57,946 nt of DNA from an uncultured Negativibacillus sp. GTDB lineage: Bacteria; Bacillota; Clostridia; Oscillospirales; Ruminococcaceae. The stretch is from positions 1-57,946 of the forward strand of contig NZ_CALXIN010000006.1 in NCBI RefSeq assembly GCF_944388365.1, written 5' to 3'. A program made the position numbers and the translations under genes. The notes beneath the pieces were generated by a model. The model made no database searches and was not told the origin of the DNA. It saw nothing but the letters and a program-made list of their open reading frames with translations. How positions within the stretch are numbered: position 1 is the first letter of the stretch; each line of letters begins with the position of its first letter. This document shows positions 21,168 to 47,280 of the stretch, one piece after another.

Positions 21168-23030
21168 TCACCTGCTTTCTGTCGAGTCGCCGGCGCTCAC
21201 CTGCTGCAGCAGTTCACGGTCGGCGTTGTTCATCTGTATCTGATAAATATCCTGGTAGATTCCTTTTCTGGAGATCAGCTCCTCATGGGTGCCGATATCC
21301 GCCACTCTGCCGTTATCCAGCACCAGAATTCGATCCGCCTGCATCAGAGTGGTGATGCGGTGGGAGATGAGGATGGTGGTTGTATTGCCCATCTTCTCCT
21401 TGAGCTCGTGGCGGATCTTGGCGTCGGTCTCGGCATCCACCGCCGACAGCGAGTCGTCGAAAATCATGACCGGTGCATTCTGGGTCAGCATTCGTGCAAT
21501 GGCGACACGCTGCTTCTGACCGCCCGACAAGGTGACGCCGCGTTCGCCGACAATGGTATCATAGCCGTTGGCAAAGTTCTCGATTGCCTCATCGACACAG
21601 GCCGACCGCGCTGCACCGCGCACATACTCCATCATTTCCTCGCGGCCCTTGCTTTCGCAGGCAATGCCGATATTTTCACCGATAGTGCGGGAGAACAAAA
21701 ACGGCTCCTGCAAAACGATCGACACATTTTTGCGCAGATGTGCGCGGCTGATCTGGTTGATATCCACTCCACCGATGGTGATGGTTCCCTTTCCGTCCTC
21801 CAAATCGTACAGACGGTTGAGCAGATGCATCAGGGTCGTTTTGCCCGAACCGGTACCGCCCAGAATGGCAAAGGTGCTGCCCGCCGGAATGGTGAAGGAC
21901 ACGTCATCCAGCACAGGCTTTTGATTTTCATAGCCGAAGGTGACATGGTCAAACACGATGTCGCCGTCCATTGGCGGTGTCAGCGCCTGTGGTGGGTCGT
22001 GTTCCGGCTCGGATTGCAGGATATAGCTGACACGTTCGATCGAGACGCCGGTCTTGCTCATCTCCGAAAGGATCTTGCCCAGCGAACGCACCGGCCAGGT
22101 CAGTGTGGCATTGTAGGAGACAAACGCCAGAAATTCTCCCAGGGTAATTTCCCCGTGGACAGCGCTGACCGTTCCCACAGCGATGACGCACAGCACCTGC
22201 AGCGCCATAATCAGGTCGCCGGTGCTCCAGTAGGCGGTCATCATGTGACCCAGTCGAATCCACAGCTCCGAGAAGGCGATGTTCTTCTCATCAAAGCGGT
22301 CGATCTCAAACTGTTCGCGTCCGAAGGCGCGGACGACACGGACACCGGTCAGATTTTCCTGGACCACCGAGGACAGAACGCCTTCGGCGACGTCCGCGCT
22401 CATAAAGCGTTTGGAGATCTTGGAATTAAAGAAAAACGAATAAAACATAACCATCGGCACAAAGATGACCGCTACCAGCGAGATTTTGACATTCATGGTG
22501 AACATGATGGTCATGGTCATGACAATCAGAAAGCTGATGCGGAATACCTCGACCATCTGCGCACTGATAAAGTTGCGGATAACCTCGACGTCCGAGGTGC
22601 ATCGCTGGATGATCTCACCGGTCTGGTGGGCAGTGTGCCAGGAAAACGGCAGCTTCTGGATATGTCCAAACAGCTCGTCGCGCAGCGCCTTGATGGAACT
22701 TTCCGAGGCTTTTGCCGTGTTCAGGCGCGCAAAAAAGCTGAATACACCGGACAAAATAGCGGTAATCAGCACTGCGACCGCTGCCAGCAGCAGCATGGCT
22801 TTGGTATTATCGGCGGCAAACTGCGCAATCCCCGTCCTCTGAATCCATTGCGGAAGCTCCGAGGAACCGATGACCGAGTCCACCGTCATACGGATAATCT
22901 GCGGTGTCAGCGAGTTAAATGCCGTATTGAGCACCGAACACAGCAGGCCCAGTCCGAACAGCCACAAATTTTTTCGCACAAAGCGAAAAACGACTGCGGA
23001 GGCTTTTGGCTTGAGGTTGTTGCTTTGCAA
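21168..23030 (-). CDS. ABC exporter half-transporter, subunit with degenerate Walker B
   Basis: A 620-residue half-transporter and first structural gene of the exporter operon. The membrane domain has about six hydrophobic segments. The nucleotide-binding domain has Walker A ILGGTGSGKTT, an intact LSGGQKQRVAIAR signature and a Walker B, VMIFDDSLSAVD, where the catalytic Glu is replaced by Asp. It complements the partner at 19319-21163. The frame is open to 23165, but no ribosome site supports starts there. TTG at 23030 follows AGGAG at 10 bases, and GTG at 23039 (AAGGA, 7 bases) is possible. An attenuator with a leader peptide lies upstream at 23170-23434. Confidence 0.9.
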   Translation of the reverse strand: MQSNNLKPKASAVVFRFVRKNLWLFGLGLLCSVLNTAFNSLTPQIIRMTVDSVIGSSELPQWIQRTGIAQFAADNTKAMLLLAAVAVLITAILSGVFSFFARLNTAKASESSIKALRDELFGHIQKLPFSWHTAHQTGEIIQRCTSDVEVIRNFISAQMVEVFRISFLIVMTMTIMFTMNVKISLVAVIFVPMVMFYSFFFNSKISKRFMSADVAEGVLSSVVQENLTGVRVVRAFGREQFEIDRFDEKNIAFSELWIRLGHMMTAYWSTGDLIMALQVLCVIAVGTVSAVHGEITLGEFLAFVSYNATLTWPVRSLGKILSEMSKTGVSIERVSYILQSEPEHDPPQALTPPMDGDIVFDHVTFGYENQKPVLDDVSFTIPAGSTFAILGGTGSGKTTLMHLLNRLYDLEDGKGTITIGGVDINQISRAHLRKNVSIVLQEPFLFSRTIGENIGIACESKGREEMMEYVRGAARSACVDEAIENFANGYDTIVGERGVTLSGGQKQRVAIARMLTQNAPVMIFDDSLSAVDAETDAKIRHELKEKMGNTTTILISHRITTLMQADRILVLDNGRVADIGTHEELISRKGIYQDIYQIQMNNADRELLQQVSAGDSTESR

Positions 23031-23169
23031 GTAAATCACTCTCCTGTCCTTATCAAAAAACTCCTTCCTCCCCTTCAAAGGCTGCCGCTTCTTTCCCCCT
23101 TGTCTGCACAGCATTTGACGGGACGCCACAAGGTCCTTTTCCCGATTTGACCTTATGGACATCAATAAA

Positions 23170-23203
23170 AAAAAGCATCCCTGCGTTGACAGGAATGCTT
23201 TTT
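23170..23203 (-). terminator. Attenuator terminator before ABC exporter
   Basis: On minus, AAAAAGCATTCCTG (23203-23190) pairs with CAGGGATGCTTTTT (23183-23170) around a 6-base loop and is followed by eight U residues. One pair is U-G on minus but would be a C/A mismatch on plus, so minus is the functional strand. It lies 140 bases before the exporter start and is an alternative fold to the antiterminator at 23188-23312. Confidence 0.85.
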
Positions 23204-23312
23204 AGACACATTTTCTTTGCTGCTTTGGCGCACCTTGACCCAAAGCAGACCGAACGTACCTGTTCGGTATCAACAATACTTTCGAATCGAAGGCTGTAAA
23301 AACATTCCCATC
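23188..23312 (-). promoter_or_regulatory. Antiterminator pairing between leader ORF and terminator arm
   Basis: Minus-strand RNA 23312-23298 (GATGGGAATGTTTTT, codons 15-20 of the leader ORF) can pair continuously with 23202-23188 (AAAAGCATTCCTGTC). That gives 15 bp, including three G-U pairs. The second segment is the left arm of the terminator, so the two structures exclude each other. Two local hairpins, 23268-23249 (ACCGAAC/GTTCGGT) and 23248-23220 (CTGCTTTGG/CCAAAGCAG), fill the loop. Confidence 0.7.
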
Positions 23313-23356
23313 TTCTTTTGTTGATCCTTGCGGTTCATACCCATCTGATTAGTCAT
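23270..23356 (-). CDS. 28-residue leader peptide of ABC exporter operon
   Basis: A short ORF of 28 codons plus TGA, beginning MTNQMGMNRKDQQKK and ending QPSIRKYC. It has an excellent ribosome site (AAGGAGG, 6 bases before ATG) and a near-consensus promoter. The peptide is basic with five Met and a C-terminal Cys; no signal peptide or known motif is seen. Its position before a terminator and a heterodimeric exporter, and the overlap of codons 15-20 with an antiterminator arm, point to a regulatory leader peptide. The analogy is B. subtilis bmrB before bmrCD, although I see no resemblance in sequence. A free-standing small protein or exported peptide is the alternative. Confidence 0.75.
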   Translation of the reverse strand: MTNQMGMNRKDQQKKMGMFLQPSIRKYC

Positions 23357-23404
23357 ATTCTTATCCTCCTTCGTCGATCGTTTTCGGCTTCTAAAGCCGC
23401 TATC

Positions 23405-23434
23405 AGTATACTCCATCCACAGACAGATTGTCAA
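23405..23434 (-). promoter_or_regulatory. Strong promoter of leader peptide/ABC exporter
   Basis: On minus, TTGACA (23429-23434), 18 bases, TATACT (23405-23410). The short 5' leader includes CGGCTT/AAGCCG, a small hairpin just before the ribosome site. Confidence 0.8.
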
Positions 23435-23522
23435 GGCATTTTCATCAAAAACAACAAAATTTTTTCCTCATCATCACTTTAATTTCATCATATAGCACCT
23501 TCTGTGGATTTCATCGTCATTT

Positions 23523-23798
23523 TTATGGCTTGCGAATAAAAATGGCTTCCGCTTTTGCATCTCCCTGCACAGGCGTTTCGATGCGGTACAGTCCCAGCGG
23601 CACGGTCTGCTCCTTTGCAAACGCACAGTAGGCCTGTTCATCCATCCCTTCAAAGCGAATTGCCAGCCCGCAGCTGGTGGAAATCGCACGAGGTGTCGGC
23701 ATGATGCGGATTTCAAACTGCTCCCTTGCCTTCTTTTCGGTCTGCATGGTATCGGTCGTATTATAAAAGGACATCGCATAGTAGACGTTTTGTTCCAT
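23523..23798 (-). CDS. DUF3343 family protein (putative Se/S carrier-like)
   Basis: A 91-residue protein of the DUF3343 (putative Se/S carrier) family. The diagnostic block is FEIRIMPTPRAISTSCGLAIRFE with its conserved Cys, which resembles the TPR.IS.SCG motif of the family. DUF3343 genes often lie beside sulfur or selenium transfer genes, but here the neighbours are glgP upstream and the ABC leader downstream, so context gives no help. The ATG at 23798 follows GGGAGAG; the frame is open much further upstream, but that part is only the complement of glgP coding sequence. Confidence 0.85.
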   Translation of the reverse strand: MEQNVYYAMSFYNTTDTMQTEKKAREQFEIRIMPTPRAISTSCGLAIRFEGMDEQAYCAFAKEQTVPLGLYRIETPVQGDAKAEAIFIRKP

Positions 23799-23842
23799 CG
23801 TTTTCTCTCCCAACAATTCAAAAGGTTTTTTTAGTCCAGTCC

Positions 23843-47240: not shown

Positions 47241-47280
47241 GCAAAAAAATCCGCAGAAATTTTTTCTGCGGATTTTTGCA
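47241..47280 (-). terminator. Terminator of yerC-methyltransferase-hslO operon
   Basis: A long stem, GCAAAAA-ATCCGCAGAAA with its complement, directly after the hslO stop, with a U run on minus. Confidence 0.85.

Follow-up and report, generated by a model that had tools for sequence, protein, structure and literature searches.

In an uncultured Negativibacillus sp., a two-gene ABC exporter operon is probably governed by a ribosome-mediated transcription attenuator that senses ribosomes trapped at the start of a short leader open reading frame (ORF). The whole device lies on the minus strand of the stretch of DNA that was analysed (57,946 nucleotides, referred to as the window), with a glycogen phosphorylase gene on one side and the exporter operon on the other (Table 1). 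Its parts, their conservation and the predicted switch come directly from computation; in the cell, the RNA would be terminated or read through as the predicted folds suggest, and the inducers are probably peptidyl-transferase drugs. An earlier, sequence-only reading of the window had proposed a leader-peptide attenuator at this site, and that proposal is supported by the finding that all parts are kept in two congeners.

The promoter is of the sigma-A type, with a TTGACA -35 element (23434-23429) and a TATACT -10 element (23410-23405) separated by an 18-base spacer, and would start transcription near 23398. The promoter, the 28-codon ORF with its AAGGAGG Shine-Dalgarno (SD) sequence, the two hairpins that follow the leader and the intrinsic terminator with eight U were all found as the sequence-only reading had described them, both hairpins being present in the predicted fold. 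The terminator starts 66 nt past the leader stop codon; its stem (23203-23170) comprises 15 pairs and a loop of 4, with the U-run at 23174-23167. The exporter gene had been placed 140 bases past the terminator, and the measured distance from the U-run to its TTG start codon at 23030 is 136 bases. On the other side of the device, a short coding region lies directly upstream on the minus strand (23523-23800, ending LGLYRIETPVQGDAKAEAIFIRKP); its counterpart stands at the equal position in Negativibacillus massiliensis (L033, identical to L004), so the exporter position is syntenic in the genus.

Table 1. Features of the leader region and the exporter operon, in window coordinates.
Feature	Coordinates	Strand	Basis
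Promoter, sigma-A type, TTGACA-18-TATACT	23405..23434	-	11/12 consensus matches
Predicted anti-antiterminator 5' arm (SD and start-codon region)	23349..23381	-	minimum-energy fold
Shine-Dalgarno AAGGAGG of leader ORF	23365..23371	-	sequence; overlaps anti-antiterminator 5' arm
Leader ORF, 28 codons and stop, MTNQMGMNRKDQQKKMGMFLQPSIRKYC	23270..23356	-	translation
Predicted anti-antiterminator 3' arm: mimic, then GCCUUCGAUUCG	23278..23312	-	minimum-energy fold
Terminator mimic (antiterminator 5' arm), GAUGGGAAUGUUUUU, codons 15-20	23298..23312	-	duplex, shuffles, alignment
Two spacer hairpins within antiterminator loop	23210..23270	-	folds
Terminator left arm, common to terminator and antiterminator	23188..23203	-	sequence, folds
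Intrinsic terminator, eight U	23167..23203	-	-18.3 kcal/mol
Exporter subunit 1, half ABC transporter, 620 aa from TTG	21168..23030	-	degenerate Walker B (IFDD)
Exporter subunit 2, 614 aa	19319..21163	-	canonical Walker B (VLDE)

The helix that the sequence-only reading had drawn between leader codons 15-20 and the terminator left arm forms in full, 23312-23298 pairing with 23202-23188 over 15 pairs, G-U included, at -16.6 kcal/mol. The antiterminator arm thus lies inside the leader ORF, and because the helix occupies the left arm of the terminator, the terminator and antiterminator are mutually exclusive in sequence and folding, as had been claimed. When the minus-strand leader RNA is folded, both hairpins appear, and the fold beats 200/200 shuffles (z = -4.9). 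About 0.3% of dinucleotide-shuffled ORFs equal the leader-terminator duplex (p ~0.003); the mimic duplex alone gives uncorrected p values of 0.003-0.03 across the window and its two congeners. In a synonymous-codon test only the window reaches significance (p 0.013 vs 0.11 and 0.71 in the congeners), so part of the constraint may act on the peptide GMF. As a background control within the window, the other 28 terminator-like hairpins were inspected, and none has a convincing SD-led leader ORF with such a switch; the nearest lookalike, at 47250, has TTG-start ORFs only and 7 bp. The leader sequence matches no named family, and the sequence-only reading had not recognised it either.

The predicted fold contains a third structure, overlooked by the sequence-only reading, in which the leader's own SD region pairs with the codons just beyond the mimic. 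This anti-antiterminator is predicted to hide the SD as well when no ribosome is present. Its interplay with the ribosome was followed by folding the nascent RNA as it would be before the terminator right arm exists, with the ribosome footprint barred from pairing, a procedure that leaves out kinetics and RNA polymerase pausing. In the window and both congeners, the antiterminator has 0-2 pairs with no ribosome, 11-15 pairs with the P-site at codons 1-3, and about 0 pairs with the ribosome around codons 15-20. A ribosome at codons 1-6 leads to predicted antitermination in all three Negativibacillus-group species, and this early window extends to about codon 14 in one of them (L034); in this group only, a second permissive window opens with the P-site in the last few codons. 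A switch score, defined as the antiterminator formed on early masking minus that formed without a ribosome, was compared with dinucleotide-preserving shuffles of the ORF, and the full switch was reached by 0/150 shuffles in each of the three species. With the right arm present, the terminator is always the stable state, and hence the antiterminator must win in time, as in other attenuators.

These folds suggest an attenuator with three RNA structures that exclude one another, and three states. With no ribosome, the SD and start region would pair with codons 15-25, the mimic would be locked, the terminator would form and the exporter would be off. During normal translation, the ribosome would cross codons 15-20 and mask the mimic, or else the anti-antiterminator would re-form behind the ribosome; either course would end in termination. 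A ribosome stalled on the start codon, or no further than about the sixth codon, would instead cover the SD arm; the mimic would then pair with the terminator left arm ahead of synthesis of the right arm, and the polymerase would read into the exporter operon. Because the anti-antiterminator sits on the leader's SD, an early stall, and not the mere absence of the ribosome, would be the signal. The earlier suggestion that ribosomes slowed early leave codons 15-20 free is thereby supported in silico: masking of the first codons flips 3/3 Negativibacillus-group leaders and 6/8 leaders of a second clade. It was incomplete in lacking the SD-based anti-antiterminator, and a late stall would also free the mimic in the Negativibacillus group.

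The leader evolves too fast to be traced as DNA: a search within the genus hit only its own genome, and relatives were located via the exporter protein. The exporter is 86% identical in N. massiliensis, the nearest named relative, and about 81% identical in a third species (L034, same DNA as L070). The promoter, the AAGGAGG SD, the leader and the terminator are present in both, and the alignment keeps GATGGAGTATACTG around the -10 element, GCAT(T/C)CCTG as the left arm of the terminator, and a leader that ends in Cys followed by the stop codon. The leader counterparts (MTKKMNLTDCGKVNMRGMFEPSKTGVC in L033, MTNKMNLINLITSKKRNIQGMFLLPPDQGCCC in L034) have diverged widely and have in common chiefly their start (MT..M) and the block GGGAATGTTT, which mimics the right arm of the terminator and is identical in the three species. 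In the congeners a bulged base interrupts the pairing of the mimic with the left arm, other hairpins occupy the position of the spacer hairpins, and the pairing of the SD with GCCU(U/C)C is again predicted (GCCUUC, but GCCUCC in L034). Comparison across relatives, which the sequence-only reading had named as a check, thus finds the parts conserved and little true covariation of the pairing arms within clades; the comparative support consists of conservation together with wholesale replacement between clades.

The second clade comprises eight orthologous exporters in three other genera (L006-L010 and L073-L075); one record, L035, is labelled Candidatus Fournierella pullicola. The leaders of this clade, 23-27 codons long (MTNxR... 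LSAPxLCPV), are followed by a terminator a short way ahead of the exporter; their sequence is unrelated to that of the Negativibacillus leaders and their layout is alike. An SD-adjacent GGCGG(A/G)CAG pairs with (C/T)TGTCCGC in all eight, and just before the latter a mimic, AGCCG..GGRA, imitates the terminator right arm and pairs with the arm CCYCCGGC. Footprint folding finds the early window in six of these leaders (L006, L007, L010, L073, L075 and, more weakly, L009). The switch is absent in L074, and in L008, unlike its relatives, the antiterminator is predicted to be open even without a ribosome, which may reflect a degraded or differently set switch. Late stalls fail in seven of the eight and partly work in L008 only. 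The early window therefore occurs in both clades and the late one only in Negativibacillus, so the common property is the sensing of the first few codons. The clade-2 mimic duplex alone is no stronger than in shuffles and the arms are nearly invariant, which makes covariation counts uninformative; support in this clade comes from position, conservation and the switch. The C-terminal peptide pattern LSAxxLCPV is encoded with many synonymous changes, and its Cys codon is always TGC; RNA pairing can explain most of its conservation, and a role of the peptide is possible.

Exporter orthologues in four other genera (g31, g12, g48 and g42) lack a comparable SD-led leader followed by a terminator, so not every orthologue of this exporter carries the device. 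Two further records (L037 and L081) carry a leader, MTLRRSSVSAATRIDTPEVPYCPPSDPTAQ, some 224 bases ahead of the exporter match; a strong terminator follows at about -61, and their folds give no clear early-stall switch. In a metagenome-assembled genome labelled Lachnospiraceae (L041), AAAGGAGGC precedes a possible short leader, MIIRTLGEELSR, some 229 bases ahead of the exporter match, and a terminator-like hairpin comes next.

The exporter itself can safely be assigned, on sequence, to the heterodimeric multidrug-type class, and it would export drugs. One degenerate and one canonical Walker B motif are a hallmark of heterodimeric type IV exporters, and in bmrCD the degenerate subunit is encoded first, as here. 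Matches in the PDB include BmrC/YheI (7m33_C) and TmrAB (6raf_B) for subunit 1, and BmrD/YheH (7m33_D), TmrAB (6raf_A) and TM288 for subunit 2; the scores, 299-314 bits for BmrC/BmrD, 318-324 for TmrAB and 278-325 for TM288, indicate class-level similarity only. Among the best 25 NCBIfam matches, all were generic and under the curated cut-off. BmrC and BmrD are matched in gene order, the degenerate subunit coming first behind the leader ORF and terminator. The earlier label "BmrCD-like" is therefore apt as to class, gene order and degenerate first ATPase; TmrAB and TM288 score about as well.

The ORF could be an ordinary small gene with its own strong promoter, SD and terminator, followed by an exporter with a promoter of its own, the leader-terminator pairing being incidental. 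The folds are predictions only, and the uncorrected p values of the mimic duplex alone leave room for such a reading. However, the RNA elements persist in their order although the peptides are poorly conserved, the three-state switch is found again in two clades, and the interval between terminator and exporter has no promoter-like site better than 8-9/12; the small-gene reading is accordingly quite improbable. Still less credible, to the point of being nearly negligible, is a sensor other than the ribosome (a riboswitch, a T-box or an RNA-binding protein) with an incidental ORF. A terminator/antiterminator pair alone does not name its sensor, but Rfam gives no family at gathering score for the leader region, only sub-threshold chance matches, and 11/11 leaders of the two clades have a start codon and SD, with clade-2 length differences in whole codons. 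Moreover, the anti-antiterminator arm is the SD itself, hence ribosome occupancy must affect the pairing.

The alternative that keeps a real switch and moves the signal to a stall near the leader end is unlikely, if less so than these two. Low levels of charged tRNA-Cys at Cys codons, or a C-terminal arrest peptide, would hold the ribosome over the anti-SD arm and free the mimic. All 11 leaders and a twelfth (L081) have Cys near the C-terminus: as the last codon in the window and L033, as three codons in L034 and third from last in all eight clade-2 leaders. The late permissive window of the Negativibacillus group is also what this reading expects. Yet in 7/8 clade-2 leaders the antiterminator fails to form when the Cys codon or its vicinity is masked, and early masking works in most; the clade-2 Cys codon lies in the arm of a TGCCC..GGGCA hairpin, so that RNA constraint can explain most cases, and a run of Cys codons occurs only in L034. 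In footprint folding, a late-stall or cysteine signal is not common to both clades.

If ribosomes trapped at the leader start are what the attenuator senses, the trigger is likely a drug that targets ribosomes and arrests them at initiation or directly afterwards; candidate inducers are of the lincosamide, pleuromutilin, streptogramin A, phenicol or oxazolidinone type. Lincosamides, pleuromutilins and streptogramins A hold ribosomes on the first five or six codons, and phenicols and oxazolidinones do so with Ala, Ser or Thr as the penultimate residue. Nine of the 11 leaders begin MT, a start that would suit a phenicol or oxazolidinone stall at codon 3 and is a lead only. The action of peptidyl-transferase inhibitors depends on nascent-chain residues (PMC8987054). 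A bolder version, plausible but not one to be favoured, is a peptide-independent sensor of start-codon occupancy: because the anti-antiterminator draws on the SD of the leader itself, induction would follow from any agent that holds a ribosome on the first few codons, whatever their sequence. If true, it would explain the near-complete turnover of peptide and RNA between genera with the layout kept.

A literature search found no paper describing such a leader in these bacteria. With this device, the attenuation of drug exporters by translation sensing, known from bacilli and streptococci, would reach gut bacteria of the Negativibacillus/Fournierella family, with two clades in which the RNA logic is kept though the sequence has been replaced, and it offers a testable rule for efflux-inducing drugs in gut commensals, namely that ribosomes held at codons 1-6 induce.

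In the E. coli trp attenuator, alternative hairpins are set by where the leader ribosome stands. The present device is alike in that the position of the leader ribosome would decide between alternative hairpins (trp is also discussed in PMC4191407); unlike trp, it has no run of one regulatory codon, and masking of the SD and start would decide. Predicted attenuators also precede ABC transporter operons in the ABC-leaders of a premature-terminator survey, including a multidrug export operon of lactobacilli, but these form a computational class with no named mechanism, and the likeness noted here is one of arrangement (PMC2965389). In the patA leader of Streptococcus pneumoniae, a terminator, antiterminator and anti-antiterminator are likewise predicted before a heterodimeric ABC exporter, and terminator mutations raise expression; unlike here, the parts of that account consulted describe no leader peptide and do not identify the signal (PMC4319486). 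The mef(E)/mel and msrD leaders regulate a drug resistance operon by transcription attenuation when a ribosome-targeting drug is present, as would the present leader, but their genes encode the mef efflux pump and an ABC-F factor and they respond to macrolides (PMC4335068, PMC10314930); the present leader has no known conserved stall motif.

The closest parallel is bmrB-bmrCD of Bacillus subtilis, where a translated leader ORF (translation being predicted here) with a terminator, antiterminator and anti-antiterminator precedes a heterodimeric ABC multidrug exporter operon (PMC4191407). Drugs that act on the 50S subunit (lincomycin, erythromycin and chloramphenicol) elicit a response of the bmrB leader, kanamycin and gentamicin do not, and its regulation requires leader translation; the role of its anti-antiterminator was left unclear (PMC4191407). 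The terminator and antiterminator of bmrB lie within the coding region (PMC4191407), whereas here the terminator (23203) lies beyond the end of the leader ORF (23270), and, unlike in bmrB, the anti-antiterminator uses the leader's own SD. The device thus appears to work like bmrB-bmrCD and to belong with the leader-peptide attenuators of resistance and efflux genes; it is somewhat unusual in placing its anti-antiterminator on the leader's SD and in a layout that persists between clades without sequence similarity.
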